Assembly (NCBI GenBank): GCA_903813345.2
Contig: CAIIXF020000010.1
Span: 13,459,181-13,523,180, forward strand
Direction of reading: 5' to 3'
DNA: 64,000 bases
Origin: Owenia fusiformis
Lineage: Eukaryota > Annelida > Polychaeta > Sabellida > Oweniidae
Shown here: positions 3,596 through 41,593 of the stretch, in pieces
Layout of the letters: the number at the start of each line of letters is the position of its first letter
Numbering within the stretch: the stretch's first letter is position 1
The notes under the pieces: model-generated
What the model saw: the letters and a program-made list of their open reading frames with translations, nothing else
Told to the model about the DNA's origin: nothing
The model's database searches: none
Made by a program: the position numbers and the translations under genes

Positions 3596-6500
3596 TATTT
3601 TAAGAAGAGCATGAGACTGAGTGACCAAGCTAAAAAGATGAAGCAGCAGATATGGAGTTCCGTTGTAACGATCGTCCTTGTTGAGGGTCGGAATCTTCTC
3701 CCAATGGATGACAATGGACTCAGTGATCCTTACATCAAGTTTCGCCTCGGGAATGAAAAATACAAAAGCAAGGTACGATTTAAGGATGTTATGTAGATTT
3801 ATTAGCATTGCACAATCCTTGTTCTGTATATAGCTATATGTAATTCTTGATAATTCACAATGATTGGTTCATCACTGTAAGTATAGTAAGTATAAATGGA
3901 TTGATCATTTTGAGATGCATCTTGTGTCTGACAACATCTTATAATGTCCTGTCTTGCGATATGTATGTAGCAAATGTTTTAACAGACATGTTCAAATGCT
4001 AAGTGTGGCTGTGTATTTCATGTATACATGGACCCATCCTCAAGATCAGGCATCACTGTCCCAGCTCATGGAATAAATTAAAATACCCTTGGACCAAGGA
4101 TGAAATGTGCCTGTCCAGTCATATTTTGGACACATGATAGACCACACCCTCACTTAGAATTTGAAAATTTCTGAAGCTTTCCATCTTGAAACTGCAACAT
4201 AGACCATAGATAAACAAATCTGCCCATAATAAGGAGTATCTTGAAATAGATGCATCTTCTTCAGGAGCAAATGGAGGGCTTATATGGAATATCAAAATCA
4301 TCTAACCATATTACAAGTAACATGTTATGGTAGTATTGCATATCTTACAATTCCCGACCTATCTCGTCTGCAATAAATCATATTTGCATCATAAAGGGAA
4401 TATACACGCGACATAATCCACTGGATTATATCTGCTATTGCCAATTTTCATCCTTCATATGCTTTCTTCTGCTAAGTTGATATTATTATCTACTGACGCT
4501 GAAATGAAAGAACTTCTATAATTGTTTTGTTATATCCATCACCTCATTTATAATGACTTCCCTCTACCTATTAAGATAAGTGCATGTAATTATCGTACCC
4601 TGCGTGCAGAGTCTAGTTATAAACTACCCTCTGCTTAGTATAGACTATATTACAGTTTTAGTAGCCCCATCCCCACCTATGCCTATGATAGCCTGAGTTA
4701 TAAATCATTTCAAACCGACCATGCTGAACTTTTCTCATCGGATCATCGAGCTGGAAGGAGCTCACGCTAAATGCATGCTCATTAACTATGTGGTGACGTC
4801 AGAGGAAATTACCGTATATAGAAAGCCATCTGTATTTCAACAACCCAACTCTGAATGGCTCAATAAGTTCAGAGATTTATTGTTTACTGAGAGTGAAGAC
4901 GAAGCTCTCTTTTAAAAAGCTAAGTCGAACAAATGCAAAGGGTATAATTATCGATGCTACTTAAATGACTTGTATATTAATGTTAGTGCACCGTAAACAT
5001 TAATATATTGTTAGTGCACCACATTAATATATTGTTAGTGCAGTACACCACATTATTATGCATCAGGTTGGAGTTGATGTGATCGTGAAGCCAATGAAAA
5101 ACATATCTTTTGATGTTTTTATTTCTAAAAAATGAACGGAGAAAATTGCATGAATTCATTTCCATTTATGTATTATATTCACTATAGCACCTCAAAACAA
5201 GCTTTATTAAGTCATAATTCTTAATATATTGAAAGTTGACATCATTATACGAGACCCTATTGCGTTAATAAAGTGACTCCTATGGCTTTTACTATTACCA
5301 CGCACTAGTTACTATTACCAATGTTGAGTGTTGCTGATTATCTTGATTTATATTTTTACATATGCAAACCTCAAGTATTTCATTAATTAATACATAAAAA
5401 TATGTTTTACAATTCTCAGAAGAACCAGGAAAGAATCTATTCCTTCATAATCCTTATATAAATAAGGGTCAAAGAATCCAATTCATGTAAGAAATACTTA
5501 AAAGGCAAAATCAGATTTCATAAAGGGTGACAAAATCCAATCAATGTGCATCTTTAACTTCTAGAATACATCATGAAAGATCCATGATGTCATAGAATTT
5601 AAAGTTATTTCAGATTTAAAGTTTGTTTTCATAGAATAAAGTAGAACATTTTGAGAAAATTTGTTTGGCAAGAAATTATTCTCAAACTGAGACAATATAT
5701 TGGAAATGTTGCTCGACTAGATCTGATTATGCCTTTAATAGAAAAAGTATGAAATATGCTATTTTAAAGCAAGGTTTTTATTGTAATACACTATATTGTA
5801 TGCTGCTCACAGAAAAAGGTAATTACTTTCTAACGAGACATTCTATTTTATTCTCAAAGGCGAAAGAAGTGAATTCAGTTTGTAGATATATTATATAGAC
5901 CTTAGAATTGATGTTGTGGTGCACAGGATGTGTGATGTAGTACATAGGGATCTGCTTAATTAATGATATTCATCAAAATTATTATATTTATTACATTTGT
6001 GGGAGGGAGCAAATATTTATTTTGTGATGCCGTCAATTTCTGTTATGTCACCACCAGTGTTTGTCTCCAACTTTTTGTGGATGGTGTTTGGTGGTCAGCA
6101 TTTGGGGCTTGGCATTTGTTTCAAATTACTGGTGATGACATTTTGCCATGTTATTAATGCCTTATTAATCTCTGTTTTTTAGAGTTGAAATGTAATTGAT
6201 TTTTGATGAATATCAATGTTTTGACCCAACCCCTCATATAGTTAGATAAATAGATCAGTAGATTGTGTTTAGATTTTGCATGAAATAACAACACCTTAAG
6301 AAGGAGCATAAGCTAGATTTAGAAAATATGGTGACTTATGTGGAAAACTTAAGGCCAATGCATATGATAAATACTTATTATATTTGAAAATTTACTTATT
6401 TGGCTTGATCAGCATGAATATTTTTCTGTAGTTAAAATTATGAGTAGTATTTTTGACAGCTTCACAAACAAGAATATAACTAAAAAGTATAATTATAATA

Positions 6501-9500
6501 ATATAAAATTGTGCATTAACATTGAGCTTTACCGCTCTTGTGTCGCCATATTTAAGCTCCTTCTTATTAGGCTGAAGATTTCATATTAAGTTGTACATTT
6601 TAGTTTGGAGATGACATTTGGATCAGGAAGAATCCCTACTGGGTTTAACACAACACATGCATGGATTGGATAAGGAAAATTATTCTGAAATTAATTGAAT
6701 TTCAAAAATGCTTGCAAACTGAGGATGTAATTTCCCCCATGTGTGACTCAAGATTATTGATAGATATCCATGTATAGTGGAGAAGTTTCATCCTCTAAAT
6801 GCATGGCTATGTACCTGAGGATATGGGACTTTGTCCAGGCAAAGCCGAAGCTCATTGTCCCATTTTTGAAAAACACATACAATTATTTGCATTACATCAC
6901 CTTCTGCCTGCAATTTGAAGATGCCATAAGATATATGATAATTATGGGTAAAATCGTTTTGAGATTTCTTTCGAATCATTTTGCATATACCGGTACATGA
7001 TGTGCTCCCATTCCCTTTGTATACCCCCCCCCCCTATTTCCTCTATATTACACTATAGGAAGTGAGGAGGTTTGGGGTCTCAATACAAAGTAAATTGTAA
7101 AACTACAAACTTCTAATATGATACACTTTCTAAATGGGGTTCATTTAATTTGAAATTAGCTGTACAATATTATCCCAATCGTCATGGTGACATTTTCCAT
7201 GAGCTGAAGCTGATGGGTTCCTGAAAGATTTTCTTCTCTAATTAGAACTTATCAGAGAAAGTGTCTGAGGTTTTGATGTGAGAACTCAACCCCACAGAGG
7301 TAGTTGAATACACTGTTGTAGAAAAATGTCATTATGTAAATGTACTCCCAGTGTGAGTAATGAAAAAGCTGTCACTAATGAATTAACAATTTAGATGGAA
7401 ACCTGAATGAATATTAAGATAAATATTGTAAAATGGAGATAAGGGGAAAATATTTCAAATCTCAACACTGTGTTCTTCCATGAGTACAATATTGTATGCA
7501 ATATTAAGAAACTCTTCTCTCAATTTTCTGCACATTGAAATTATTAATTCAAATGAAAAAGGTCAATGATGTATGAAATCTGCAGGATTTCTCAGAAATT
7601 TTAAATGAAACATGACACAAAAATGACAATTCAGCAGATATTCATCGTCTGAAATGGAAAACTGGGAAGAACTTAAAAAATATAGCTGGAAAAAACAGTT
7701 GGAGGATTGAATGTGATTCCTTATTGCTGTAGTTTAAGAAACAAGAAAGACATTCATGTTTTGGAATAATTAGGAAATGACATTCTAAAATACTAAAGAA
7801 GACTTTGTATAATACAAGTTGTATCTCTTGATTTGAATAATTTAAATATTAGCGCATTATGAAGGGGTTCATTTGAGAATAAAATTAGTTGAATTAGCCA
7901 TGTTGTTTATGTTTGTAGTTCAAGACTAAGACACTCACCCCAAGATGGCTAGAGCAGTTTGATTTGCATATGTTTGATGACCAGACCAGTATGCTGGAGG
8001 TATCTTGTTGGGACCATGATGTAGCAGGCAAAGATGACTTCATGGGAAGGTACCCTTAGTTTGGTCTAGTTAGATATAGAAACTAGAAAGACAATTCATC
8101 TAGATTGAAAGTGCATTATTCCTGAAAAAAGATTGTACTGCTTTTCCCTATATTTTATGCTGCATATTTCTCTTGATTTTGGGAAGCTACGGCCACCATA
8201 CAATTTCTGTAGTTTGAAGACTGACACATTTCTTACAGTAGATGTGATTCTTTTCTTTCAGGGCAATTGTAGACTTGAGTAGTCTAGATAGAGAGGTGAC
8301 TCATACATTGGACACAGTCCTGGAGGATGGCGCGGGAATTGTCAAGATATTACTCACAATTAGTGGAACTGCGGGGGGAGAAACTATCTCAGATCTGGTC
8401 AATTATAAACCTAACCCCAGAGAGAGGGAAGAAGTTGTCTGTAAATATGTGAGTAAACAACATGATTAGTCCCCTTAATTTTTTCACCCAAGGATCAGTC
8501 ATATTGACAACAGATCTGGACAATTGGAAAGTACCTAACCCTAGAGAGGAGTCCAAATAAAACATGATTAGTCCCTTGAGGTTTTTCATGAGAGGATGGG
8601 TCATTTTGATAACAGCTCTTTTCATTATAAACTGAACCCCTTTTCAGCCAATTATTACATGGCCTATATTGTACAAACTTCCCTGGTTGTGAGGCAGGTG
8701 TAGAGGGCTTGAGAAAACTCCATCATCAAAATGGCAAAAATTGCAGAATATATAAATGAGTTATCGAATAATTTTCATTTCTATTTACAGGGTTTGCTCA
8801 AATCGTTTAAAGGACTAAAAGATATTGGATATCTCCAAGTCAAAGGTAAGACTATTTTTGTTTGATTTCTCCTAAAAGGTTTCATTTAGTGGAAGGCAAA
8901 TATAGATAAGATTAAAAAAACTATAACAAACGATGGCAATTTAAAGCGGGTATCATTGATTGATGTATATGTAATAAGTTGTAGTATGTTTTAACGAAAA
9001 AAAATTTAAAAATTAAAGTGCAATATTATTTCCACCTTGGAAGTAGTCTCGCATTTCCTTTCTGCATTTCCAGTCAAGCCTTGTGATAGATTGATTTGTA
9101 ATTTTCAGAGAAATCTCTGAACTGAATAATTTTTTTGGCATGCTGGGTAAATTTAGTCAGCCATTTTTTTCATTTTTAGGTACGATGTTCACTGTGTGCC
9201 TTGTTAGTTTGAAAATTACTATTATAATTTATTGTCATTTTCAATTGATTTGTTTTTCAGTATTTCAAGCTCAGAACCTACTGGCGGCAGACCTAGGGGG
9301 TAAAAGTGATCCATTTTGTGTATTAGAACTAGTTAACTCAAGATTACAGACACAGACTGAGTATAAGACACTCAATCCTGAATGGGGAAAAGTCTTCACT
9401 TTGTAAGTGACAGTTAGGAATATATATGTATGTGTTTGTCACTGTTTGTCCTAAAGTGGAAACTCTAATTTGTTGATAAATGCCTGAGAATTAGAAACAG

Positions 9501-12500
9501 CATTCAAACATGTACAGAATAAACTTATAAACTATATACATATATGAATCAGTAAAGCTTACAAACCAATGTAAGACTTATCAAGTGACTCCACACTTTT
9601 TCTGAGAGTTCAGATTCCGGTTATATGTTCATATTCAATTTTCAATCCTCAGTTCAAGAGGAGGCCATAGTTTATTTTAAGAAATAGGGTCAAATCCAAT
9701 GCTAAGAGGGCTTATGTGAAAAAGTCACTCCACCTTTTTTATGCTTTTCAAGCTTTATTTCATAATTATTTTCCAAATTCATGTAAAAATATCAAAATTT
9801 TAAATTGACCAAATAAATTTGTAATTCCAGTAATGTGAAAGACATCCACTCTGTGTTGGAGGTTACAGTGTATGACGAAGACAGAGACAAGAAAGCAGAG
9901 TTTCTTGGCAAGGTGGCCATCCCAATCCTAAGAGTGAAGAATGGTGAAAAGAAATGGTACACACTGAAAGACAAGAAGCTCATGACCAGAGCCAAGGGTG
10001 CAATACAGTTACAGTTGGACTTCATATACAATCATGTAAGCAACAACATTTTACACACTTATAATGTCTCAGTTGAAATACACAGCCAGTGTATGTGTGC
10101 AGTATAAGCAATTTGGCATATACTGTACATGAGATAAGCAGTATTTTCACATTTATTCTATCTAGGTGTTTATATTTAGATAGGAGTTTTCACATTTTAT
10201 CATGTGTTAAAATCGCAATTGACAATATAAATATACATAAATCAGTCAAATGTGTTATCATGTGAAATTCAGGGAATATACACGCAGGATATAAAATGGT
10301 AAGTTCATTTCAGGGGCTTTACAGAATATTTACTTCTGAGGTAGTAATGTCAGTTATATCTACAAGAGTATTATAAAAGAAATCAAACAATACATGACAT
10401 AATCTTAATGGGTATGGCCAATCAGGGTTACTTTATAAGGGCATCCAAATATATAAGGTATAAGAAGCCAACAAACATAAGGGATATGGTTAATAACTCC
10501 TCATACTAGTTGCTGAGATATCGAGTTGTATAAGCCAGCCTTTAAATTGAAATTATGGCATAAAGTGTTTGAAAAATAAAGTAATACTATGATAAGGTTG
10601 TATAAGAAATTCAGAGCTCTTTAAAGACCCCCTCCCAATTCTACTGTAAACTTGGAATTGAAAATTTTGTTATTTTAAGGTTAAAGCTGCAGTTAGGACA
10701 GTCAACCCTCGTGAGGAGAAATATATGCAACCAGAGCCAAAGTTCAAAATATCTGTAAGTGGTATTTTATAGGATGTGATCACTTTTTCATTCTGTCCCT
10801 GGTTTCATGAAATATCTTCCAAAAAATGTTGCAATATTTTATCAGAAACTTTAATTTGTGTGAATTTTTATATTCAAACATTAACCGCCTGTATGCATTG
10901 CAATAATATAATGATCCATTTGGCATTGCTGTTCTGTAGATAATGAAGCGCAATATTGATAGCCTGTATGCATGCAATAATATAATGATCCATTTGGCAT
11001 TGCTGTTCTGTAGATAATGAAGCGCAATATTGATAGCCTGTATGCATGCAATAATATAATGATCCATTTGGCATTGCTGTTCTGTAGATAATGAAGCGCA
11101 ATATTGATAGCCTGTATGCATTGCAATAATATAATAATCCATTTGGCATTGCTGTTCTGTAGATAATGAAGCGCAATATTGATAGCCTGTATGCATTGCA
11201 ATAATATAATGATCTATTTGGCATTGCTGTTCTGTAGATAATGAAGCGCAATATTGATAGCCTGTATGCATTGCAATAATATAATAATCCATTTGGCATT
11301 GCTGTTCTGTAGATAATGAAGCGCAATATTGATAGCCTGTATGCATTGCAATAATATAATGATCTATTTGGCATTGCTGTTCTGTAGATAATGAAGCGCA
11401 ATATTGATCGTGTGTCCAAGATTGTTGAGGCGGGGGTGGAGTCGGGAAAGTTTCTGGGTAGCTGTTTCAGCTGGGAATCTAAACCTAGAAGTGCCACAGC
11501 ATTTGCAGTATGTACAAAATTGAATTGTTATAAGTACACATAAGTGACCACTTTAATAAATTAATGAATTGAATATTCAATATTTTATATAGAACTCTAA
11601 ATCAACTGTTTCAGGTTAATTACCTAATATAAGTGTAAATAAATAAAATGATTGAATTGTATACATATCTAGGCTATATACAATTATGATGGCGCTTGGA
11701 TATACCATATACTGTACTTAGTACAGTGCTTCTTATGATTAAAGAACTGCAAATAGAGAAACAAAATTGGTTATAAACACATAGTAGTAAACTGAATGAT
11801 AAAAATAAATTGCATATGTTCATGTACTTTGTGCATTTGTTACCCACATTAATATTTCACAACATGATTTCTTCATTCTGTATATCCCAGGTGATGAAAA
11901 TAAAAGTCTGTTAATTCCATGTATCCCATAAGAATATTTTCAAGTTTCAGCTACCATTGCTCCAGATACATTCACTTAATATGGTCATACTGCATTGTAT
12001 ATTTATATTTATGTTGTACATGATCCTACTGTGCATTAAATTGATGTTGTAAATCATTTCGACGTTGTGTATTATATTCTAGGTATTTCTAGTCATATGT
12101 CTCACAGTGGAGCTGTATATGATTCCAATAGTGTTGCTGATACTCTTCACTAAGGGCTATATAGTCACATGTATTAAACAAGATACCCCACAGTATAAGG
12201 TATATGTAGATGGCAATGGAGAGGGGAGGGGGGCTTGTCTCATCAACCCAACTCTCTTGGCTTGGCTTTGTAGTCAGAGGGGGCATTTCTCAAACTACCA
12301 CATATTTTGCTTTGTGATGCTTAATAATGACATCAAAAACAATTAAATTTTTATTTGGTGAGCATGAGACTCTTGTAGAGTTGGGGAATGCCCCCTGGTT
12401 TTCTCAGTGAATTTTACATGGAAATGTGTGATGTCATATACAGGTCATTTGGGACAAATCAAGGTTCCACATGCTTCCTTCCAATGTTCCTTTTTATTAC

Positions 12501-15500
12501 AACTCTGCCTAAAATGTTGTTTATTTGAGCAAAATAATAACTACACTGTACCAAAAATTGAACCTCGAAATCACACATTTCTATATTTTCCCGAGAAGTG
12601 TAGGAATCGAGTTCTATGACCACCATCTTCAAACCATTTCCATCATCATGGTTACATTAGAGGTCTATAGAGGGCGGCAGTAGTTACTAAAACCTTTTGA
12701 AAAATACATGTTGGATTGACTGGCTTTTAATCTTGCATTTGGACAAGGGTTAAGCTATGCTGTTAACTCATGGCTATTTCTCATAGAGAACCATTGTAGG
12801 TTAATATCCTATGCTATAAAGCCTTTTGCTACAGTAAACCTATGAGTGGGTACTGGAATCACCTGGGATTTCCACTTGGTATTAACCCGTATATATGATT
12901 TTAGGATAAGGCTTGGAGGGTTAAGTGAATAGTTTAATGCATACTAAACTTGTACTTGTGTTTTGCTGGTCTTTCTTGGCTTTCAGATGCAGTCTGAAGA
13001 ACATTCATAATACATTAATTAGTCTCATGTATATGTGCAATAAACCTGTATAAGTGGAATATATTTGGTCCCTGAAAATAGTGTTGGGAGATGTTCCAGT
13101 AGAAGTTCATTTTATATTAAGTTAGTGGGTAAAGGGACTTTGAAAAGTGTTCGTTTACGAAGGTATTCCACTTCACAGGTTTATGCACATTATAAGGTCT
13201 ACCCCCAAAACAAACAGCACAATTTTAATTTGGGGTATTATGATCGTAGATAGTATTCATTGATTTTATTAGGGCCATTAGTCTTATTCTTTTCTGTTGC
13301 CCCTCCTGTAGCACATGATTTATTTTATTAACCCTGTGTGGCAGGTATTTCTGATATTAGTATGGAACTTTGAGCTGTTCATGCTGCCAATCACCCTCCT
13401 CATGGTCTTCCTAAAGAATCTGGTTGTAGCTAACATTGTGGGAGCATTTAATAAAGAAAACCAAGAAGATGTAAGTGCTGGCATTTAAAACCCTGCATGT
13501 GTGGTGAGAACAATGATAATTTTGATTTCAATGAAATATCATCACTATCCTTAGACTATAATTGAGATATTTTTACAAAATTGTTCAGTTACAGGAGTAA
13601 TATTGTATTGTAAAGTAAATGTTTAAATGTTACTTATTGCCAAATGCTTATAAAAGCTGATAGTGTTCCTTTTTACTAACCATAAAATTTGAAAACAATA
13701 CAGTTCACAGAGCGATATATATAAATAAACACAATTCAAAATTTAAATAATTTTTAATAAAGACTAATTTTCTCGCTCTCTTTTACTATTACTTTAAGCA
13801 CATTGGCCTACCTTAGTACATAGGCAGCTTATTCATTAGATGTTAATATGAAACTACACTGCATTAAGAGATATTTTTTGAAAAAAAAATGTGTTATGCA
13901 ACTAATATGTCTTTTACTGTTCTAGTTAAATATTCTGTGCATTTGAATGCTTAAAGTAAACATGTTATGTCAAAAGATGAAATTGAAATGTATAATCTTT
14001 TGGATCTTGTATTGTAGTACTGTTAGACTTTATTATGACATTTATTGTATTTGGATATAAACTATATTTAGGTTTACATCTTTAAAAATTATTTGTTAAA
14101 TACTCATCATATGTTTGATTTATATGAGCATAAATGGTGTCATTTTACTTGTTTTCCATTCAAGCAATGAGTATCCACAAAAACAACTTGTGTTAAAATA
14201 TACATAATTTTAATAATCCAATTACAGGAATATTATGATGAAGAACTGGATGAGGAAGATGAAGAAAAGGACAATAAGGTAATTAATTATAACAGCCCAT
14301 AATAACCCAAGATGTAGGCTGTGTTTACATGAACCAACTACTGTACCTTATTGTCTGTGATTTCTTGTGGTTCTGCTTTGAACTGCGTAAATAAAAATTC
14401 AAGTCCCTTCGTTTTCTCCAATAGGAGTATTTCTTTCTGAGGTCTGCCAACCGGTTCAAATACCTCCCAATTTCCCAGTCCAACTATATATACTCCTCCA
14501 TATTACATCTGTACACCTCTACCTCACCTCTATGTAACCCCTTATCTCATCTCTATGTACACCCCCATTTCACATCTATAACCCCCATATTACCTCTGTG
14601 TACCTATGTACACCCACATCTCACATCTATAAACCACCTCCTTACCTCTATGATACCTCTGTCCCACAAATTTTGTAATTAATGATAACACACCACAGGG
14701 TTTGGACATTTCTTTCACGTATTATTGCTCATTTGAGGATGAACTATTGTTCCAAAGGTGTCACATTTACTGTCTCAAGTACTTACTGTGCTATTAGCTA
14801 CTTCCAATCCTGCTGACTGAATTCCTTTAGCATGTTGTACCCTATTACAGAAGCCTTAGTTTGGAAGTGCAAAGACTAATATTGCAAGTTCACAGGATTT
14901 ACAGAAAAACATACATCAAACATTGATGAGTTGTTAAAGGTGCAACAATTAGTGCAGGGGGGGGGGGCATTCAACCACCATCGTACAGTGTCAAAATATA
15001 TTTAAGTTTGGATATTTCATCAAGACTAACATATATTTTTATTATCTACAAAGAAACCCCCTGGATGAACATTATTTCAGCTGATATTCTTCTTGAAACG
15101 TGGTGGATCTTAAAAATCTATAAGTGGGACTCCTCTTATAGAAGCTTTGAACTGAATTTACACTTCTTAATGCTGAAATTGATAGTTTATCCATACATTT
15201 TAAGAAAATAAAAATAGGTATGTCAAAGAAGATGTTAAGCCAAATATTGACCTGATAGCTCAGAAAAAGTAAAAATATTCTAATTTTCTCTCTACAGTCC
15301 TTGTTGCCCCTTTAATATTTAAATGCATCGGCTCTTTCTCCAATATACCAATTCCTTCTCTAACCATATAATATTCTTTATATGTTATGTTGATGCATGA
15401 ATATGAGCGTGATTGAAATCCTCTTTGAAAATATTTCATAAAGAAATCTTGTTTTATTCTAAATATCCTTATTAGGTAGTGTTATACCTTGTTGCATGGC

Positions 15501-18499
15501 AACCCATGTATTGACAACACTGTTATGTGAATATTGTATAATTCAACTTATTTTTGTTTCATGTGCATTTGTAGAAAAAGGTAATGTTTTATCTTTGTTT
15601 TGTTCTTGTTACACTTTAAAGGTATTGCTTTGATATTTAGATACTAATTCGAAATGGCATGATTTATTTTATTTTTTTTCAATTTCTAAAAAAGCATCTT
15701 AGAGTATCAGGTCTTTGATTTTTGGACCTCTAAATTTATTGTTAAAACACTCAAATAATCATTCATTCAAATAGTTTATACTGAATTGAATATTTCATGG
15801 TAAATTCATGTTAGATGATGATAAAGCAGTCCTTTAAAGGCTCTTGTCAAAGCAATACCCCTTAAAGGCTCTTGTCAAAGCAATACTTTTTAAAGGCTGT
15901 TGTTTTCAGTATACATTAGTAATATTAAATTAGTAATATTAGATTTTTACTTTCTATTCTGATTTAGAAGTGTTTTCTTATAGCTTCCTTTCTATAAATC
16001 ATGTTTTGTTTCGAATTATTTTTTTCTCAATTTTCAATTGAATATAACATGTTATGTTTTAATCATGGTGTGATTTTTTTCTTATGATTGTTTGGCTGTT
16101 TACCTGGTGTTCCCAATACACTATCTCCTACTATTTTTCTGTCATAATTTAATGCCTCTATTTCTTCTAGTACTATTTCTTTCTGCAGACCAAGCACTTT
16201 CATTTTGAATGCCATTATTTTAATAATTTTTTTATTTGATAAGACTTAGATAACTATAAGCTATTAGATAAGCTCTACTCTGTTGTTTAGGAATTGCATT
16301 GAGCAGATTTCTTATGATATTTCTTCTGGGAAAACCAATCGATGCCTACTCACGCAAGATGTGATTTATACGAGAGAATGAATGACTCCAGATATTGATA
16401 GACTTGAATAGTTATGTTATATTAGAAATGTTGCAGGGAGTTATATATTTATGGAAATTGTATGACCTTTGATTTTACTATTATACCCACTACAAAATAC
16501 CTTGATGCTTCCCCACTAGCATGTTTAATCTCATGCTATACCTAGCAGTTATGATCAAACATAAAATCAGCGATCATATAATTATTTGCCATAAATCATA
16601 TGTTACTAGTTAGAAATAGATTTTTTATTGTCTTATCGGTGTGGTATTAGAGAAACTGGTTTTTGAATTATATACTTTAATGAAAATACAATATGTTTGA
16701 ATCCATTTGCTATTGTTACATGACAGTAAAGTATTTTAACAGCTATTCTAATAAATTAATAGTCATTGGCCTGGTAACAGTAGTTATGAATCCAGTCAAG
16801 AGGTCAATCATAAAGCGTTTTGTTATATTAGCATATGTCCAAACCTTTTGAATTATTCCAAACATTGAATGACTCCAAACATTGAATGAGACCACTTCAT
16901 GTATAGTGTCAATATTTGTCTGCTTTAGGAGGAAAAGAAGAGCTTTAAGGAAAAGTTACAGGCAGTCCAAGATGTCTGCCTTCAGGTCCAGGAACATATG
17001 GACATGATTGCTTCAATGGGAGAGAGGGTGAAAAAGTAAGCCTTGTAGATGTAATCCTCAATAGAGAGGTTATGTATATTGTATTTCAGCTTCATTTTTA
17101 TTTTATTATGTCACCACAACAAGCGGTGACATATTGATATAGTCTCCAACTTTTTTGTGGATAGTGTTCAGTGGTCGGCAGTTGACATTTGTAACAAATG
17201 GCAGGAGGTGATATTTTGCATGTTAATGCCTTGTTTTTTATTTGTATTTTTTATTACTTGTGGCTAAATAACATATCTCATGTAGAAAGCATGGCTGTTT
17301 ATGAAATAGCACCAATATGCAAGTTAATGAATAGACACATTGCCTTGCTAGTAACAAATTGTTCTATATAAAGGCTGACAAACTTTTGAATTTGTATAAT
17401 TTACCTTTGCTCAAACAGCATTCATTGTTTTCTCGAATGTTTTCATGCATTTACCCATGTGTTTATGTTTCCCATGTTTTACAGCACATTCAACTGGACA
17501 GTGCCTTGGTTGTCTACTCTAGCTGTAATAGCCCTAGGTGTGGGGGTGATAATTCTCTACTACATTCCTCTAAGATATCTCATCATGGCCTGGGGTAAGT
17601 ACAGCCATTTATTATCCAACATGTCAAACATGTATTGTATAAGGTGAGTTTAAAACAGCCAATGTCCCTGTTACAGCCGGGACTTTTTCAGAAATATACC
17701 ATGTCTTATAAATGTAATATATCAGGATTTAATAATTTACACGTAGTTGATATAGGCCTGGAATTTGATTTTATGTAATTAAACATTGAAACAAGTCCAT
17801 GTATACATGGTTGGCAATGCCCAACATTAACCCGACCATCAATTATGAAATAAAATGAAGTAAACCCATTATATATATTTCAGGTATAAACAAATTCACT
17901 AAAAAGTTACGAGCCCCCAATGCAATACCCAACAATGAGCTAGTGGACTTCCTTTCAAGAGTGCCTTCTGATAAAGAATTGGTAAGATTCATTTTTGATA
18001 ATCTCCCAACTTTTTGTGGTGATGGTTGGTGTTTGATGTTTGGCTGTTGGTGTTTGGCATTCTATGTCTGTAACAAATGGCAAGTGGTGACATTTTGCAT
18101 ATCAATGCCTTGTTAAATTCTAATTTTAAATACACAAACTTGTTCAAAATGGATATATCTCTGTTCTGTCACCTTTGTGAAATTGATTTTTTATAGTCTC
18201 TTTTTTTGTGGTGATGGTATGTGTTTGGAAGTTAGTGTTTGGCATTTAATGTCTGTAATAAATGGCAAATGATGACATTTTGCATGTCAATGCCTTGTTT
18301 AACTCTAATTTTAAATATGCAAACTTGCTTAAAATGGATGCTTTTCATACATGTCATATGGTAATAACTTTCGTTCCAATATATTCATCCATGATAATTG
18401 ATAATTAATGTAATTTTTGTGAAATCTTTCTTTTAGATCATGTTTCGGGAGTTAAGACCAGACTCAACAATTGTGACAGGGAAGAAGAAACGTCAATGA
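3596..18499 (+). CDS. MCTP: MCTP, multiple C2 and transmembrane domain protein (C-terminal part, spliced)
   Basis: Exons: 3596-3772, 7919-8049, 8262-8448, 8791-8845, 9261-9402, 9831-10035, 10680-10754, 11388-11507, then 12083-12199 or 13345-13470, 14228-14278, 16929-17035, 17485-17594, 17884-17981, 18437-18499 (TGA). All phases join in frame, giving about 548 residues. C2B carries the [13 protein letters not shown] loop and [15 protein letters not shown]2C carries [11 protein letters not shown] and [18 protein letters not shown]. Then come the reticulon-like first membrane exon, an acidic linker ([15 protein letters not shown]), a helical segment, the second membrane exon ([11 protein letters not shown]...[13 protein letters not shown]) and the conserved tail ([11 protein letters not shown]). 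The order matches animal MCTP1/MCTP2, which are ER-anchored Ca2+-sensing proteins. The N-terminus and C2A exons lie left of the window. Confidence 0.95.
4721..4915 (+). other. Unrecognised 64-residue open frame in MCTP intron
   Basis: Starts with ATG after ccgacc and ends in ESEDEALF-stop. Unlike most open frames here, its composition looks coding: mixed charged and hydrophobic residues and a plausible amphipathic segment ([17 protein letters not shown]). No flanking acceptor or donor is evident. It could be an intronic retrocopy of the 3' end of another gene, or chance. I do not recognise the family. Confidence 0.25.
4981..5056. repeat. Short tandem repeat, about 27 bp x 3
   Basis: The block TTGTTAGTGCACC followed by acattaatata recurs three times head to tail, the last copy diverged. 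Confidence 0.75.
6030..6165. repeat. Dispersed GTCACCACC...TTTTTGTGG repeat, one of about six copies
   Basis: Related copies share the order atgtcaccac, gtctccaactttttgtgg, gtgtttggtggtcagc, aacaaatggcag, ggtgacattttgcatg, aatgcctt. They occur near 2276-2345, here, 17108-17232, 17998-18116, 18195-18300 and, inverted, 34425-34520. Length is about 120 bp. No coding capacity is seen; it is probably a short non-autonomous element. Confidence 0.7.
10885..11408 (+). repeat. 75-bp tandem array duplicating an MCTP splice acceptor and exon start
   Basis: Seven copies of tctgtag start at 10933, 11007, 11081, 11156, 11231, 11306 and 11381 (spacing 74, 74, 75, 75, 75, 75). Each is followed by the first 21 nt of the real exon, encoding IMKRNID. 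Only the last copy (exon from 11388) continues into the conserved coding sequence; the others run into agcctgtatgca and an in-frame stop. The long minus-strand open frames here are by-products of the 75-bp period. Confidence 0.93.
12083..12199 (+). CDS. MCTP: MCTP alternative first-membrane-segment exon A
   Basis: A 39-codon exon, phase 0 at both ends, with acceptor ttctag and donor AAG|gtatat. It encodes [19 protein letters not shown] and continues hydrophobic, then ends in a polar IKQDTPQYK tail. It aligns with exon B (13345-13470), which starts with the same GTATTTCT. Family members normally have one such exon, so A and B look like a duplicated pair used alternatively. Exon A is less like vertebrate MCTP than B because it lacks the VWNFEL motif. 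Confidence 0.8.
13033..13190. mobile_element. Inverted-repeat element, CCTGTRTAAGTGGAA family
   Basis: The left end ATGTGCAATAAACCTGTATA, followed by agtggaata, is answered by the inverted right end TATTCCACTTCACAGGTTTA, followed by tgcacat. Length is 158 bp, inside the intron between MCTP exon A and exon B. Its termini match the element at 52171-52309. Confidence 0.75.
13345..13470 (+). CDS. MCTP: MCTP alternative first-membrane-segment exon B
   Basis: A 42-codon exon, phase 0 at both ends, with acceptor tggcag and donor GAT|gtaagt. It encodes [19 protein letters not shown] plus a hydrophobic extension and a polar tail (FNKENQED). The VWNFELxMxP motif is the one conserved in vertebrate MCTPs, so this is probably the ancestral exon. 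Including both A and B would stay in frame but add a third membrane segment. Confidence 0.85.
14485..14665. repeat. Degenerate pyrimidine-rich tandem repeat
   Basis: Repeats of the type acctctatgtacaccccca, with catctcacatctat variants of about 30-40 bp, in an MCTP intron. Confidence 0.6.
15575..15580 (+). other. MCTP: Candidate 6-nt micro-exon of MCTP (Lys-Lys)
   Basis: In the 2.65-kb intron between 14278 and 16929, the string tttgtag|AAAAAG|gtaatg has a perfect acceptor and donor around six bases. It is phase 0 and would add two lysines between DNK and EEKKS, where vertebrate MCTPs also have a lysine-rich linker. Chance occurrence is quite possible. Confidence 0.3.
15612..15895. repeat. 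Inverted repeat with duplicated right arm
   Basis: The left sequence ctttaaaggtattgctttga is answered by two consecutive inverted copies, tgtcaaagcaatac followed by cccttaaagg or tttttaaagg, near 15845 and 15880. It is intronic and small, probably an inverted-repeat element whose right end was tandemly duplicated. Confidence 0.55.
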
Positions 18500-21450: not shown

Positions 21451-23051
21451 ATCCCATCGAACGAAGTTCGGAGGGATATAGGGAACGCCTCCGTCCGTCC
21501 GTACATCCGTCCGTCCGTCCGTCTGTCCGTCCGTCTGTCCGGGCAATAACTCAAATACCGTTGGCCCGAATTTGGTTCATATTTTGTACACATATACCCT
21601 ATGGGGGTAGAAGTTCTGCTCGAAAGCCGATTTTCAAAATGGCCGCTCATTTCATTTAAGTGCCGATTTTACAGTAATTTAGGTACAATATGTAAAACTG
21701 TAATAGCAATATGTTTTAAGTGTAAAAAAATTATAAAGGACATTAATAAAGCTACAAATGTAGATATTAAAAAAGCACATGGCAGCCATCTTGAAAAATG
21801 GTGGCCTTTACTCATTATTTTACGATTTTTGCTGTAACTCGAAAAGTAGTGGAGCGATTTTGTTCATATTTGGTATGTGAATACTATAAGCATGGCACAC
21901 TGTCCTATGACACTTTTGGTAGAAGGCGGCCATTTTGAAAAAATTTTGAAAAATGGCCGCCATTTTAACATATTTTACTATAACTCGAAAAGTAGTGGAG
22001 CGATTTTGTTCATATTTGGTATGTGAATATTATAAGCATGGCACACTGTCCTATGACACTTTTGGTAGAAGGCGGCCATTTTGAAAAATGGCCGCCATTT
22101 TAACATATTTTACTATAACTCGAAAAGTAGGGAAGCAATTTTGTTCATATTTGGTATGTGAATACTATAAGCATGGCACACTGTCCTATGACACTTTTGG
22201 TAGAAGGCGGCCATTTTGAAAAAATTTTGAAAAATGGCCGCCATTTTAACGTATTTTACAATAACTCGAAAAGTAGTGAAGCAATTTTGTTCATATTTGG
22301 TATGTGAATACTATAAGCATGTCACATTGTCTAATGACACTTTTGGTAGAAGGTGGCCATTTTGAAAAATGGCTGCCATTTTAACGTATTTTACTATAAC
22401 TCGAAAAGTAGTTCAGCGATTTTGTTCATATTTGGTATGTTTCATATTTTATATGTGAATGCTATAAGCATGGCACACTGTTTAATGACACTTTGGGTAG
22501 TAGGCGGCCATTTTGAAAAATGACCACCATTTTTACGTTTTTACTATAACTTGAAAAGTAGTTCAGCGATTTTGTTCATATTTGGTATGTTTCATATTTT
22601 ATATGTGAATACTATATAAGCATGGCACACTGTCTAATGACACTTTGGGTAGTAGGCGACAATTTTGAAAAATGACCACCATTTTTACGTTTTTACTATA
22701 ACTTGAAAAGTAGTGAAGCGATTTTGTTCATATTTGATATGTGAATACTCACGAGCCTTGCACACTGTCTCATGACACTTCGGATAGTAGGCGGCCATTT
22801 TAAAAAATGGCTGTCATTTTTACATTTTTTACTTATTTCACAAGTACATGTGTTCGATTTTTCAAAAATTTTATAGGTGGCTAATAAAAGCATATTATTT
22901 CTTCTGATGACAACTTGGCTAACCATTTTGAAAATGGTGGCCTTTCTGGTGTGTTGTTTTATGATATTTGCTATATATTTCGTTTGTAAAAATGCCAGCC
23001 ATTTCTGTTCGATGGGATTCGCTACGCTTTGGTGTTGCCGTTGTTCTGGTT
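21451..23051 (+). mobile_element. 1.6-kb repeat element with internal tandem blocks, copy 1
   Basis: Begins ATCCCATCGAACGAAGTTCG, followed by a CCGT-rich microsatellite (cctccgtccgtccgtacatc) and gggcaataactcaaatacc. The middle holds about eight blocks of about 70-140 bp, each containing taactcgaaaagtagtg, gcgattttgttcatattt, ggtatgtgaatactataag and ggcggccattttgaaaaa. The end carries GTTCGATGGGAT, the exact inverse of the first 12 bases, then about 33 further bases shared with copy 2. No transposase is seen, so it is non-autonomous. Confidence 0.88.
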
Positions 23052-25897: not shown

Positions 25898-28800
25898 TTA
25901 CAGTTCTTCCTTATTAGATGTCTCATCCTTCGAAGTCGCACCCTGATTGTCATTGGATATCTTTACATCGTCATCTGTAGATAAATCCACAAGTAATTCC
26001 TCAGTTTTCTTGGGGGGTGTATTTGTATTGGTGGGTGTAATGGGTTTGGCGTGTGAAAGGGCATTGTATTTTTCTTCTAAATACCTCATGACTGATTTGA
26101 AGGCTGACCAGGATGTGAACTCATGTTTCTCATGACCTGCAAATAAATATTACATATAAATTATTTTGTAAATTGTTAAATTATTTCTAAACATTTGAGG
26201 GGCTTTCACGAGTTAAAGGTTTTTATCACATCTGATCATATATAATATTGATGTATTCAGTCAATTTTGTTCATGTATTTGTTTTAACAGGGCCAGAAAT
26301 GCTAGAACCAGCCTAGGCTCTCTCATTTGTAATACATTTTTGGAAATTGAAATGAAAATCCATAAATATAAAAACCTAATGAATATTTCAAAAATAATGC
26401 GTTGCACCCCAGACAGGGTCTAAAATGAGCAATAGAATGATGGGAAAGGATAGCCAGGGATATACTACGATTCTCAAGCAGCTGTCAAATTTATCATCTG
26501 ATTTATTTTCTCAATACACGTTACCTGCTGAGACTCTTGGACAGTCATTTCTGGTGTGGAATTCTCGTATTTCTTTATCTACCTCATCTGAACTTGTCAC
26601 CCAGTTGCGGGCATTCTAAAGGAATAAACAGAACATGTACATTAGTTTATACGTATATTTATCAAAACATTGTACATTTAATTGTACATTTTGGCCAGTT
26701 GAAACGGCAGTAAAGAATAGAGGGTGTAAAATGGAAGCAATCTCTTCAAAAACATGCTAATGATTCCAAATTTTATTGTCCAAAAAGAGAATTATCTGAG
26801 AAAAGCTGAAGAAGTTACTAAAAATCTGGAAAAAATCAGATCTATTGGATTTTTAAAAAAAGTTGGGAAAACATTGCTAATACATGTAGTTATGAGAAAA
26901 ATAGCATTAAACATTTGTTTAAGTTAAAGTTACTTTTAACTGATCTCTAGTGTTTGTTACACCTATGTCTTATGATGAGACAATGACCCTACTACTTTTT
27001 CACTAATAGATTACAAAATACCTTTTTGTAGAAAGCTACTACACTAGATGGGACTTGTTGGTGTTCTAAGCTATGTACAGAGTCAGTAAGTGCAACTGCA
27101 AATACTCTCTTCTTAAACTCTTCCTCTCTGTGGACGGCCTGAAATGACACAACATCTTGGTAGTATAGCGGGGTCAGATGTCCAGATATAACCCCTTTTT
27201 TGTTCGGCTTTTTCAGGAAAGCAACAAACTTGGCACATTTGTAGAAACATGATTGGAGTGGAAAATGATTTCAGGGCAAGTGGTTAGGGGTGGAACACGA
27301 ACACGATGCGCATGTGTGAATTGCCACTTTTCCACGAGCTGATACATAAGATGTCGTGTTATTCGATCAATTCATTAAATACAATTTACATGTATATAAA
27401 TATAAATAATATTTCGAATCACCTGGCATTACAATGCCCATCTAAATATGAGTTAAGTGACAATTTAACTAAAACTTATCATGTTCAACTTACCAGTTCA
27501 GCTGTCACCAAGCCTCCGTAGCTATGGGCAACAATTGCTATGTGCTTAGCTTTTGCTTTTGATATAATGTTGTCCCACACGTAAACTGTGTGCCTTTCAG
27601 GTCCAGCGCTACCCTGAATGTTAAAAGTGTTTTTATAAATACAATATAATTTTGACAAAATCATCTGACAGTGGCAACTGGTATAAGCTCAAATTATGTA
27701 TTGAAATCAAGTACTCAAATCACAAAACAACAAAATTATATTTATTGGATCTCAAATGTTAATGTAACATTTGATTATTTGATCTCAAGTAAACTTATAA
27801 CAAAGGTTTTTTAATAAATTTACATGTGGCAATAAAATACTCAAAACTGTGAACTAGAGGTGTCAAGTATTAACCGGTTAACCGGTTAAACGCCGATAAT
27901 GCCTTGACCGGTCTGAGTTTTTATGGGCGGTTAGTTGACCGTGTATAATTCTGTTATTTCCCGCACTTATTTTGCATGCTAATCCGTTTGGTTTTATGGT
28001 GTCAGTTTCACGTAAGCTACTCATACATGTCATAAGTCCCATAACTCCTTACAAACATCCAATCAACAACTTTAATCCCTGCCACATTGCTTTCCCGCGC
28101 TTACTTTGCATTTTAATCTGTTTGTTTTTCAAGCGTCAGTTTCATGTGAGCTACTCATACATGTGATAGGTCCGATAATTCCTTACAAACATCCAATCAG
28201 CAACTTTAATCCCTGCCACATTGCTTTCCCGCGCTTACTTACATAGAATAGCGTAAAGCTTGACGAACGTAAAAAATAAACGCCGATATATCATTTTTCC
28301 AATTTTTTCAACTTTCAAGATCGAAGATGAAGATTTCATTTGAAATTATCAGTTCAAATTTCCCGCCGGTTAACCGACTTTAACCGGTAAAAAACCCCAG
28401 TTAACTGGTTAATGCTCAAGCGGTTAATTGACACCACTACTGTGAACAAATTAAACAGTTTTCTACAAGCTTGAGCAATTTGCTTTACCCGAATATCAAC
28501 TCTTTCGCCATCTCTGATAACGCTATTCTGGTTTGTGTTCAGTACCAGAACCCCATAGCCTTTTTCTTTGGCAGCTTTGATATATGGAAGTTGGGTTCCT
28601 TTCTCTAATGAGTGATTTATAATCAAACTGAAAATACAATAAATACAACTTGCATGATTTCAGGGGTCTGGCATATATCATTGAAGCTGTCATCTTTTTC
28701 TGAAACTATTACAAAGTTTATTCAACCCCATAATGTGTTTATTAGACCAGTTTTTCAAATCAGACTTTACAAAGTACTAACTACATGAAGGGGTGGAAGT

Positions 28801-31800
28801 AAAAAATACTGAGTGTGAGAAAATGTAACTTGTTCAATAAGCTTTAATTAATGGGGGAGTGTTGATCTGAGCCTTTGTCGATATGTTTTGCATGTGAACA
28901 TGTAGATTTGTACATTAAAAATAGCAATGTAAAAAAGAAACAGTACTATGTAAACATTGGGCCGGTGGAAGATAGAATATCTTAATCATAAAACTAGATT
29001 GTGTATATAATAGTATATATTCTAGATTAGCTCATAAATTATGTTAATGTTCAGGTTTAAGAATAAAGTCTGCTTCAGAAGAGAAATATGCAAAATACAT
29101 AATATTCATCATCATACCTCCTGGCCCATTGTCCCGCCCTGACAACACCAGATCCATGTATAAGAACCAACAGCTTGTCGGGATTGGTGGAGGCATCTTC
29201 ACTGGCAAATATGAAACCTTGGGGTTCATCTTCTTTGGCATCAAGCTGGAATGTAGAATTAACATCATTTATAATCACTGTAACACTGAAGGGTTGACTC
29301 AAATGTTTCACACTATGTGCTGCACCTAATCCATTTTATTGAGGTAGATCCCATCCTCCACACACAGTGCTCCGGACATCATCCACTACATTCCTTCCTT
29401 CTTCCAACTTCTTGGAAAAAAGTGGTACGAGTTCAAGATGCCTGTTTTCAGAGGATGAGTAGATTCACATCAAGTTTTTGTGAAGGCCCAATTTTCATGA
29501 TTTTAATTTTGAATAATTAATGAAGTAGGTTATAATTAATGCATTAAAAATGTGTTAATTTCATGCATGAAAAAACTTCAACCAATGAATTTGTCTTGAA
29601 TTAATGTCAACATATATGCTGACATCTAACAACACATTCATAATAAAAATGTAACCTTATGTGTCGTATGGCTTAAACTTAGATGTGTGAAATCATACTC
29701 ACTGGGATGTTTATTTTCTTGAGTTTGGCATCAGATTCCAATAAGCCATAGACATGTTCTGTGATAACCTACAAAAAATGTTTTGGGATAATAAAGAATA
29801 CAAAGCACATATTTTTTAAAATAAGTACAGTGAAAACGGTGTACATTGTACAAAAATGTGTTCACGGCATTGAGGGTAATCTATACAAATTGAGTCTGTG
29901 GAGAGGAACGTGTCCATTAGAGACAGGTGTTCACTGAGACATATTTAACTGTACATGTATGGTAAAAATAATGTATAGTACATTTTGAGCACACCCACTT
30001 TGTAGTCTACTGTGGAAATGGAAAACTGAGAGGCATGATATATATTTCCTATTGTTATACATTAATGTGTTATGACATACAGCTCATAGCCTCATATGTT
30101 TCAAACATGACTATAGATTCATAATAATGTGACTCTGGTCACATTGTCTTTTTGTTCTACTGGGATTAAGAATGCTATTGACATTAAGTGAACACAAACA
30201 GCCATCTGTAATTGATAAAGGTGTCATCTTTAGTTATTCTGAACATACTTGAGCTAACTCATCTCAAGCAGCTGATGTTTTATGAACATTAGTATTTCAG
30301 TATACCCCTACTACAAGGAACAACATTTAACAAATCATTGATTCTTTGCATTACAAGTTTCTTAACTCATGATTCCTCAAACTCAGGGTGAGGAGGGGTA
30401 GCCAAACTTCACATGTGACCAGATTCCATGTCTTATCTACATATTCCATCTGTTCATTCATAAAGCATTGTATTCAGACAGCTTTATCTTAAAAACACCC
30501 TTTCTTCACCTATCATGTAAATAAAACTGATTTTGTGCAGTATTTTATGAGTGACATATGAGATTGTACGAATGAGGACACAAAAATGGGTGTGGTCAAA
30601 TTTAGTAAGTGACATACAAGCCCGTAGCCAGGATTTGCCAGGGGGGGTTCAGTTTTCAAAGATTTCCAGGGGGGTTCACATTTGACAATTTTGGTCCACA
30701 AATGGACCCTGCGAACACCCCCCCCCCCCGCCTGGCTACGGGCATGACATATGAGATCGCGCCATTAGTTCATAGGAAATAGGTGTGATCTAAATTAAAT
30801 GTGGAATTACCTCTCCTAAAGCCTCGTATCTCTTCTGGTTATATGTATGTTTATTCTTTACTTTAAACTTGAATGGTTCTCCACTTTCCTTGTCACGAAG
30901 TTCTCCATCTAAATAGATAAACATATAATTGTTATATTGTTTGTATTTCAGTATAAATACTTGATTTAGATTGGTCAGAAAGTGGTTGATAGTATTGACT
31001 ATTGACTGTTAAATTATTATGTCTAAAAGATTTTTTTAAGGGATTCTTTCTTCTTAAAATTACATTACGAATAAGATGAAAAATGGCAGAATATGATGAA
31101 AAAGCACCCCTTAAATATTGATCAAATATTGAATATTTAAAGTGCAGAAATGTCCAAAGTAGGAGGGAAAGTATCCTTGGGGGGTTTTAAAGATACCCAT
31201 TATGGGTGACCCAAATTAGCTGAAAGCAATGGATCGCATGAGTTTTCCCTATGGGAAAATAACATGGGAAATATTGTTTTCCGCTATATCTAAAAGGAAT
31301 CACTTATTCCTTTAAAGGGCTTAATTGTGTGTCAAAACATAACATATTGAAAATCGGGAAAACATTTCAGAAAAAACATGTGGGTGGGTTGTTTGCATCT
31401 TCCCTGTCTCAAAGTCGAAATTGTTTTATCATCTCTAGGAGTGCTTTTCCTGGCGGTTATGCATTGGTCTTACATGTGCACCTGTTTAAATCCTCAGAAA
31501 ATAGCCAAAATCCAACATATGACTGTCCGAAATCTGTTGCAATACTTTCCCTCCTCCTTTATTAGAATAAAAAGGAGAAGTCCACAAAAGTATTGCCAAA
31601 TAAACTAAAAAAGCAAAGCATTATCATAATATTTTGACACTGAAAAGAGCTTGAGAATCTATACTGAAAGGGACCTTAAGATTGTTACTTATCAATAATT
31701 TGGAAATCTCTACTCAGACAATTCACAAGGAGTGATCTTACTTTTAAATTATTTATTTAATTTGTTCTTCTAAGAAAATGAGAAGTACCTCCATTAAATG

Positions 31801-34800
31801 CTAGCCTAAAATGGCTTCTTATTTCTTTAACTTCCTCACTTCAGAGAAATGAATATGAACTTTTGACCATTCTATCCAATCAAAGGGCAGCATTTCATCA
31901 TATCTTTATAACATCTTCCTAATTCCATCCTGACTTCCAATAAACATCATTTGAAACAAATACTGACTTCTGGCCATTTAATCAAATCATAGCATCGTAT
32001 ACATATCATTATATCCTGATTTCATAAGATTCCATATCACTTAATTACAGACTTTTGACCATAAGATAGCCAATCAGAGTTCAGAAGAAGACGCTATTGC
32101 ACTATGATATGCTATATATAAGGAACAATTCATTCAGATATATTATAATAAAAGCAGTTGAAGTCATTATATGAAACTGTTTTAAAAAGGATTGGAACTT
32201 ACAACGACAGGAAAATAATCACTATGAATAAGTTACTTTGTGTTACTTTTGTTCTTCTTGCAGTCATAAACATCTCTAAGGTAATTAATAAAAAGTATTA
32301 CGACTTATGACATTACTTTTTATGTATTTTGCTCAGATTTAAAATCTGTTTATTATTTACACATTTTGTATTAAAGCAAACATTAAGTTTCACTATCATA
32401 AAATATGACATTTTAATTTGTTTTGAAATAATATAATATATAACATAAATATAATATATAAGTTATTCAAGGATTTGAGTAAAAATTACAGAAAAATATT
32501 GTGCCCAAAAAATCTGTACTTCATGAGGCACGCTACTTTTCAAGGGCACACTATTTTCTTTATTTTTGCATAAACTTTTTCGTATATCTGGACAAATGTG
32601 CAGACAGAGGGCTTCAATTTATCCATGTTCATTTTTTGGAATAATAAAGCATCCTAATTAACAATTCATGAGAATGACAAAAAGGTTTCAGATAGTACAT
32701 TTGATTTCAGTGCATCAACATTTCTGACAAAGGAGAACGTGCATTAAGGCAGAAGAGATCTATACTAGATTATGGTAAATGGTGTGGCCCAAGAAATACT
32801 CCAATAGGCAAACCTGGCTGCTCATGTAGTACAGGCAAACAGACATGCAGGTGAGATAAGATTACAAATAAAAATGTAAAAAAAAGTGAAGGGGGTTCTG
32901 CCACCTGTCTGATAGTGTAATTGTAAGAGGAAAGGACTTAAAATTGTCAGTAAGGTATATGAAAGTGTTTTCTCATTTCTAAAATATCAGGAATTGTGAA
33001 AAAGACAAGAAAATCCTTTTATGTCTTTGTAAATAAACCATACAGAGAAGTTCACCCAATGTAATAGCATTGTACAAATAGAACTACAGATTTTTAATCT
33101 ATACATGTATATATAAAATCAAATTGAACTACATGTATTGTCCTTACTTAAATCAAATTATTATCATTCACACTGATAACAAAATACTTTTATAAAACAT
33201 TTTGTTTAATTTTCAGACAAAAATATCCACCAAAAGATGGCCTTGATGCTGCCTGTATAAACCACGATATTTGCTCGCATTGTTCAGACATAGCCGGGAA
33301 GAGCATTTTACGTTATTGTGACTGTGAACGTGGAATTTACAATGAAGCTAGACAAGCTAAATGTGGGACATTCCATTGTTATCTTTACAGAGCTGCAGTT
33401 TTAAAAATATTTAAGCATATACCTTGTATTTGTGGAAGTCGAGTGGTTGATGATTTCAATGATTGCTAGACTGATGATGATTGGATTTAGTCAAATGCCT
33501 GTATATTATATGTATAATTTATTTGCCTATTTAATAAATTCAACTTTTTTTGTTATATGACTTGTTACAAAGATTGTGTGGTAAGATGATTGAATATAAT
33601 CAACACTATAAGTTATTGAATGATTTGAAGTGCAATACAGAATATATTCTGCTTGAGAAATTCCGTATTGGAACAAGACAAAGTCGAGTGCCAATACGAC
33701 ATATTGAGAGCAGAATATATCCTGTATTGCACTTCAAATCATTCTCTACCCTTTTTATTGTGTGATCCTTTGTATTGCTACTGAGAATGTCCCCTCTGAT
33801 CCGTACCAATATTTTCTGTATTGAGACGGAGATGATCAATGGGGACAGTCTCAGTAGCAATACAGATTGGTACAGCACAAGAACTGACCAATCAGAAGGC
33901 TTCATTTTACAGATCACACGATAAATGAAAAACTGGAATGTAAAAGATCTTGCTTGGGTCCTGATTCATTATAGACCACAATTAAGGTCAACTTTGAAAG
34001 ATTATGTTGACTTCTGGCATCAGATATCGGCTTGAAAACTGAACAATGGCAATACTAGTCTACGGTTCTCAAGGCCATGGTTCATTAAACAGCAGAGATG
34101 TATGTGTGAAAATACGTATTACTACATAGCTTTTTAATTGGCAAGGTCACTGCCATATCGAAAAACATTAAAACATAAAATAAATAGCACATGTACATAA
34201 TGGCGGTCATTTTTCAAAATTATAAAAAAGCATTGTCTCACAGTTCAATATGTTAGCAAATACAGATATGTGTCACACTTACATTATTAACATGAAAGAT
34301 ATCAACAAAATCACTCTATAATGTTTCAAGTAACTTTTTCTAGAGCCAAAATTATCCACTTTTATTTGGAGATATTGCCTGAATTTGTCTGAAATTACTT
34401 CCAGATAAACAATGCATTAACACGCAAAATATCACCACCTGCCATTTGTTACAGGACATTGAACACCAACTGCCATCCACAAAAAAGACTGAAACTCTGC
34501 TCAACTCTGCATCATTACATCCTACAAACTCCCATTTGTTAAGGGATTTGAGCACTGGAGTTAACTTAACTGGGGTCAATGTATTTTTACTTCACTCATA
34601 TTTACTATAAAATTACCCAAACGTGACTTGGATCATGTACAAATTTTGTTTTTTAAGTATTTTCTTTCAAAAGTACTTATCAATGTCAAAATAAATGCTT
34701 GTATTCTTAGAAAAAAATAGACAAACAAGTGTTTATCGTTTACTTCACTCAGAAAGTCTTCCTAAATTCCATAACTTCAACTTCTCTAATTTTCAACAAA

Positions 34801-41452: not shown

Positions 41453-41593
41453 TGCTATTTGGTTTAGCATATTGGTTAATGAAATATTTAGAAATTTTTT
41501 GATTTGATCATTGAGCCAGAGATAACCTATTAATCAGTGAGCTATGTTCTTCTGGATAATTTTTTGAAAGTTCGAAGTAAAACAGATGACATA

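Follow-up and report, generated by a model that had tools for sequence, protein, structure and literature searches.

The window, by which we mean the whole 64,000-nucleotide stretch of Owenia fusiformis DNA analyzed here, carries an MCTP gene on its plus strand. We could assemble 14 of its exons from the reading frame and GT/AG borders, running from a C2 domain at 3596 to a conserved tail at 17981.

3596..3772, plus strand: MCTP exon, encodes the 5′ portion of the more upstream C2 domain of the window (translation, GT/AG borders, C2 Pfam match)
7919..8049, plus strand: MCTP exon e2, encodes the 3′ portion of the same domain
8262..8448, plus strand: MCTP exon e3, linker between the C2 domains
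8791..8845, plus strand: MCTP exon e4, start of the last C2 domain
9261..9402, plus strand: MCTP exon e5, last C2 domain
9831..10035, plus strand: MCTP exon e6, last C2 domain
10680..10754, plus strand: MCTP exon e7
11388..11507, plus strand: MCTP exon e8, ending in phase 0 directly upstream of the putative A/B choice
12083..12199, plus strand: exon A, candidate alternative first membrane segment
13345..13470, plus strand: exon B, candidate alternative first membrane segment
14228..14278, plus strand: MCTP exon e9, acidic linker that starts in phase 0 and is in frame to join to A or B
16929..17035, plus strand: MCTP exon e10, linker
17485..17594, plus strand: MCTP exon e11, second membrane segment
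17884..17981, plus strand: MCTP exon e12

The tandem C2 domains of the assembled part are matched by PF00168 over two stretches (E 2e-50), and Pfam and hydropathy place after them a PRT_C region above its cut-off with two hydrophobic segments. When the 498-Mb genome was searched with exon B, with the second membrane segment and with e8 joined to A, strong matches were confined to the MCTP locus; thus, MCTP appears to be single copy as far as these searches, in which few candidates were scored, extend. No remaining match had an E value better than 0.58, the value at which exon B as the query found exon A itself. The C-terminus had no relative in PDB (best E 0.45) and only sub-threshold matches in NCBIfam, and its scan against viral and prokaryote collections gave 1 and 14 pattern-matching stretches, none of which was confirmed as a relative.

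Two further features lie within the gene. At 10887-11408, seven copies of a 75-bp unit (97% matches) form a tandem array in which the 3′ splice site of e8 recurs together with the first 21 exon bases; TTCTGTAGATAATGAAGCGCAATATTGAT occurs in it exactly seven times, the last occurrence being the true start of e8, preceded by six decoy acceptors. In the e9-e10 intron, a possible 6-nt microexon, AAAAAG (15575-15580), lies between tttgtag and gtaatg; it would add Lys-Lys in frame if spliced and may be a chance occurrence.

Downstream of MCTP, on the minus strand, two frames at 28357-29335 resemble ARB2A/FAM172A, with Arb2 domain scores of 26.1 and 20.8 bits (cut-off 26.8). Human MCTP1 also adjoins FAM172A, which would make MCTP-FAM172A an ancient gene neighborhood. 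At 32705-36611 on the plus strand are two tandem cysteine-rich genes that we take to be similar to secreted phospholipase A2; the one frame of the pair that was scanned (33152-33466) had no Pfam match at 0.001. A long open frame at 41534-42418, on the plus strand, has a DSPc match in its C-terminal half (55.2 bits, cut-off 33.5), as in dual-specificity phosphatases. The regions 49502-51325 (plus strand) and 57221-58075 (minus strand) hold the C-terminus of a dynein heavy chain and Cut8-like proteasome-tether frames, of which one passes the cut-off and one falls below it. Related minisatellite-like arrays with a period of about 135-150 bp occupy 21827-22808 and 46166-47022.

The features that concern us most are the two exons between e8 and e9. 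A preliminary description of this DNA had presented A and B as alternative exons for the first membrane segment, and the anatomy that it gave, namely the coordinates, the shared phase of 0/0, the common start VFL, and the shared motif (ELYMIP in A and ELFMLP in B), was borne out in full. Both exons have GT/AG borders and an open frame, and their lengths are 117 nt, or 39 codons, for A and 126 nt, or 42 codons, for B. The two proteins align with 14 of 31 residues identical. Their local BLOSUM62 score is 72, and the best segment overlapping neither exon reached 33 in a comparison set of 639 open segments, each 90-150 nt long and bounded by splice sites (234 forward, A and B included, 207 from the reverse complement, and 198 from the reversed sequence). 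None of 5000 shuffles of A scored 72, the maximum being 46. A and B are homologous, and their resemblance is beyond chance.

The neighboring introns were also searched for in-frame copies of 13 exons. A strong match was found for B only, and this match was A, at 34% of B's self-score (score 72; next raw score 25). The short exons e4, e7, and e9 also exceeded a ratio of 15%, with raw scores of 15-22 that we take as noise, and e3 gave zero candidates. At the DNA level, A against B scored 20, within the range of 100 shuffles (maximum 21), so the homology is detectable in the protein only. The two copies have diverged in character: A has a hydrophobic span of about 34 residues, no Trp, and a short tail; B has a span of about 39 residues, a VWNF core that is absent from A, and an acidic tail.

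The sequences around the two exons are likewise no more alike than shuffled DNA (100 shuffles each), scoring 19 upstream (shuffled maximum 27) and 25 downstream (shuffled maximum 26). Over the 31 aligned codons, dN is 0.56 and dS 2.16 (NG86), a rough estimate given so few codons and a saturated dS. The first, second, and third codon positions are identical in 16/31, 22/31, and 11/31 codons, values that were reached by 11, 8, and 593 of 5000 codon shuffles. The dissimilarity of the flanking introns and the saturation of dS point to an old tandem duplication, and a constrained protein alongside saturated synonymous sites argues that protein-level constraint acted after it.

Both copies also fit the family. 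Against Pfam PRT_C (cut-off 28.1), the spliced protein reached 46.8 bits when built with A and 41.2 when built with B; a construct that had neither exon, and was made without the C2 part, reached 36.7. The corresponding scores for Pex24p were 22.2, 19.7, and 12.6, all below the cut-off of 26.8. As the scores with A exceed those with B, A appears to be as good a family member as B. Pfam Reticulon matched the B form only, at residues 351-475 and well under its cut-off (15.2 versus 31.8 bits).

Splice sites were scored with a leave-one-out model built from the 14 exons of the MCTP gene only. For A, the acceptor is ordinary at 10.4 and the donor (AAG/GTATAT) weaker at 4.7; for B, the acceptor is weak at 4.1 and the donor strong at 10.1. 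The A donor and the B acceptor each rank third lowest of 14, and all of these sites lie inside the range of the other MCTP exons. The stretch upstream of A's acceptor is free of AG for 117 nt, the longest among the 14 exons. Long AG-free stretches before an acceptor are a feature of regulated exons, and the length of this one may be due to chance.

The two low-ranking sites, together with the absence of the VWNF core from A, would suit a reading in which A (or B) is a decaying relic, unspliced or spliced at noise level. Against it, A is open, retains ELYMIP and an acceptor of 10.4, and outscores B both with PRT_C and, below the cut-off, with Pex24p; the codon positions of the A/B pair also show constraint. 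We consider decay improbable.

Still less can be said for A as an alternative terminal exon, in which readthrough of its donor would yield a one-segment MCTP ending at 12343. The frame is indeed open to that point, and an ATTAAA hexamer lies at 12342, but four more AATAAA hexamers occur in 12200-14300, so such hexamers are common in the region. Moreover, A has a usable donor in the conserved phase, and the remainder of the membrane domain would be lost. This reading seems very unlikely to us.

If A and B are alternatives, nothing in the gene structure itself enforces the choice. The introns of 575 nt (before A), 1145 nt (between A and B), and 757 nt (after B) leave no steric block; all three donors concerned begin with GT, with no apparent clash of splice types. 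Thus, neither a frame shift, nor a short intron, nor a U2/U12 clash serves as built-in exclusion, and because 117 and 126 nt both divide by three, the frame permits joining or skipping both exons. Built-in exclusion is not required for such pairs: in PMC5740500, 484 clusters are left to other mechanisms.

The same permissiveness would suit an MCTP in which A and B are both constitutive and which therefore has three hydrophobic segments, with a C-terminus that would remain cytosolic if the segments are reticulon-like hairpins and would be flipped if they are single passes. The frames (117 and 126 nt, phase 0/0) allow this, and there is neither a splice incompatibility nor a short intron in its way. 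Known family members and surveys of exon pairs speak against it. PMC5449185 depicts fly MCTP with a pair of transmembrane domains, and PMC9692390 lists two for human MCTP1 and MCTP2. Neighboring constitutive exons with such features are rare according to PMC3228551: on the X chromosome of the fly, only 90 of 16180 exons (0.56%) that are not mutually exclusive had the features of mutually exclusive pairs. PMC5740500, a human survey, judges it highly unlikely that two transmembrane exons would serve as cassettes, because the membrane side of the downstream part would switch, an argument that weakens if the segments are hairpins. On balance, joint constitutive use strikes us as an improbable arrangement.

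One element that might contribute to a choice between A and B was found in the introns on either side of A.

11884..11895, plus strand: upstream arm of a predicted 12-bp perfect helix, ATCCCAGGTGAT, in the intron before A
12858..12869, plus strand: downstream arm, ATCACCTGGGAT, in the A-B intron; base pairing of the two arms would loop out A

This helix scored -25.22, compared with -25.18 for the best of 600 shuffles. No shuffle reached its score in runs of 60 and then 600, or in a separate test of 200. Among 11 adjacent intron pairs, only the pair flanking A was stronger than all of its own shuffles; the other 10 fell within their nulls, the most extreme being reached by 8 of 60 shuffles. These figures come from a single sequence, with 11 pairs tested, perfect pairs only, and a narrow margin. 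The surroundings of the arms (76 nt upstream and 86 nt downstream, matched in place of the 12-mers themselves) each have one match in the genome, so the helix is not a repeat artifact as far as that search tells. Among the three introns around A and B, there was no competing second helix beyond chance: 197 of 200 shuffles did as well as the first intron paired with the third, and 133 of 200 as well as the second with the third. Further inverted repeats of the region are imperfect or AT-rich.

The predicted helix could loop A out and so favor B. One can envision an RNA-structure switch in which the closed helix would exclude A and the opened or bound form would allow its use. MCTP might then be toggled between two reticulon-like membrane wedges, with its calcium-sensing C2 domains unchanged, retuning ER curvature or the subdomain of the ER that the tether occupies. 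We regard both the switch and its proposed consequence as speculative and rather unlikely.

What an exchange of A for B would do depends on how these segments sit in the membrane. The hydrophobic spans, bounded by the outermost 9-residue windows whose mean hydropathy is at least 0.8 (dips in B and in the second segment included), are 34 residues for A, 39 for B, and 36 for the second segment; those of A and B each include three residues of e8. Reticulon-homology hairpins need hydrophobic stretches of about 30-35 residues. AlphaFold, run on the isolated exon peptides with no alignment, predicted one straight helix each (mean pLDDT 93.2 for B and 84.6 for A), which speaks weakly against hairpins. 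The C-terminus of human MCTP2 is described in PMC6063926 as ER shaping, probably a reticulon-homology domain, and related to Pex30.

The preliminary description had proposed that including both exons would reverse the topology of the C-terminus. That would follow if each segment is a single pass; it would not follow for hairpins. Given the hydrophobic spans of 34-39 residues and the correspondence to the reticulon-like part of MCTP2, the reversal is doubtful, although the straight helices predicted for the isolated peptides count against hairpins. If each span is a hairpin, joining A and B would add a third hairpin and leave the C-terminus on the same side.

We also considered whether the A/B choice might remove the tryptophan on which the function of the reticulon-homology domain depends (W684 in MCTP2). 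By residue count, W684 would correspond to the Trp of e8 (codon 11472-11474), and this idea was rejected for that reason. The weak Reticulon match of the B form begins at residue 351, with the e8 Trp at residue 353, and B has a Trp of its own, which A lacks.

The preliminary view of A and B as alternates for a single segment is well supported by homology, phase, length, and family scores; exclusive use is the part that we infer. In the reading that we favor, with a probability of about 0.7, the first-membrane-segment exon was duplicated in tandem long ago, and the two copies, A and B, are spliced in a mutually exclusive way. The adjacent exons have similar lengths, a shared phase, compatible splice sites, and detectable homology, the features by which mutually exclusive pairs are recognized and which PMC3228551 finds to be rare among other exons. 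Genomic sequence thus suggests that both exons are spliced and that each transcript would use one of them. Two membrane-anchored forms of MCTP would result; they would share the C2 domains, the second membrane segment, and the Trp of e8 and differ in the first hydrophobic wedge. We imagine that the intronic helix may help to skip A and that the swap might alter membrane shaping or the choice of ER subdomain.

Among the matches listed in a search of the open-access literature, no title described alternative first-membrane-segment exons in MCTP, which is weak evidence of absence. By term search, MCTP was not found in PMC3303723, PMC3228551, or PMC5740500, and neither "splic" nor "isoform" was present in the searched text of PMC5449185 and PMC6063926. 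Automatic annotations of invertebrate MCTP isoforms may already contain the A/B pair.

The choice would matter for what MCTPs do at the ER. PMC5449185 presents fly MCTP as a calcium sensor of the ER that is required for synaptic homeostasis, and according to PMC6063926 the ER sites at which lipid droplets form are marked by human MCTP2. If the favored reading is true, swapping the first membrane segment alone would be a natural experiment on the role of that segment apart from the C2 domains, and the A/B choice would be a point of splicing control over ER shape.

Several known systems resemble the one proposed here. Like human MCTP1/2, fly Mctp, and worm mctp-1, the gene encodes C2 domains ahead of a membrane C-terminus that has two segments and a PRT_C match; what may set it apart from other animal MCTPs, for which the preliminary description gave one such exon, is the presence of two copies of the first-membrane-segment exon. 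As in Pex30 and the reticulons, two long hydrophobic stretches are separated by a polar linker, but unlike reticulon-homology proteins, this MCTP has only a sub-threshold Pfam Reticulon match (15.2 versus 31.8 bits). In docking/selector exon choice, competing intronic pairings are conserved across species; here, one strong helix flanks A. Tandem exon duplications of this sort are known, and the A/B pair is a new instance, in MCTP. Like the mutually exclusive pairs defined in PMC3228551, A and B are adjacent internal exons of equal phase, encode 39 and 42 amino acids, are homologous, and have GT/AG borders; they differ in that they encode a membrane segment of an ER tether or shaping protein and are known here from the genomic sequence.
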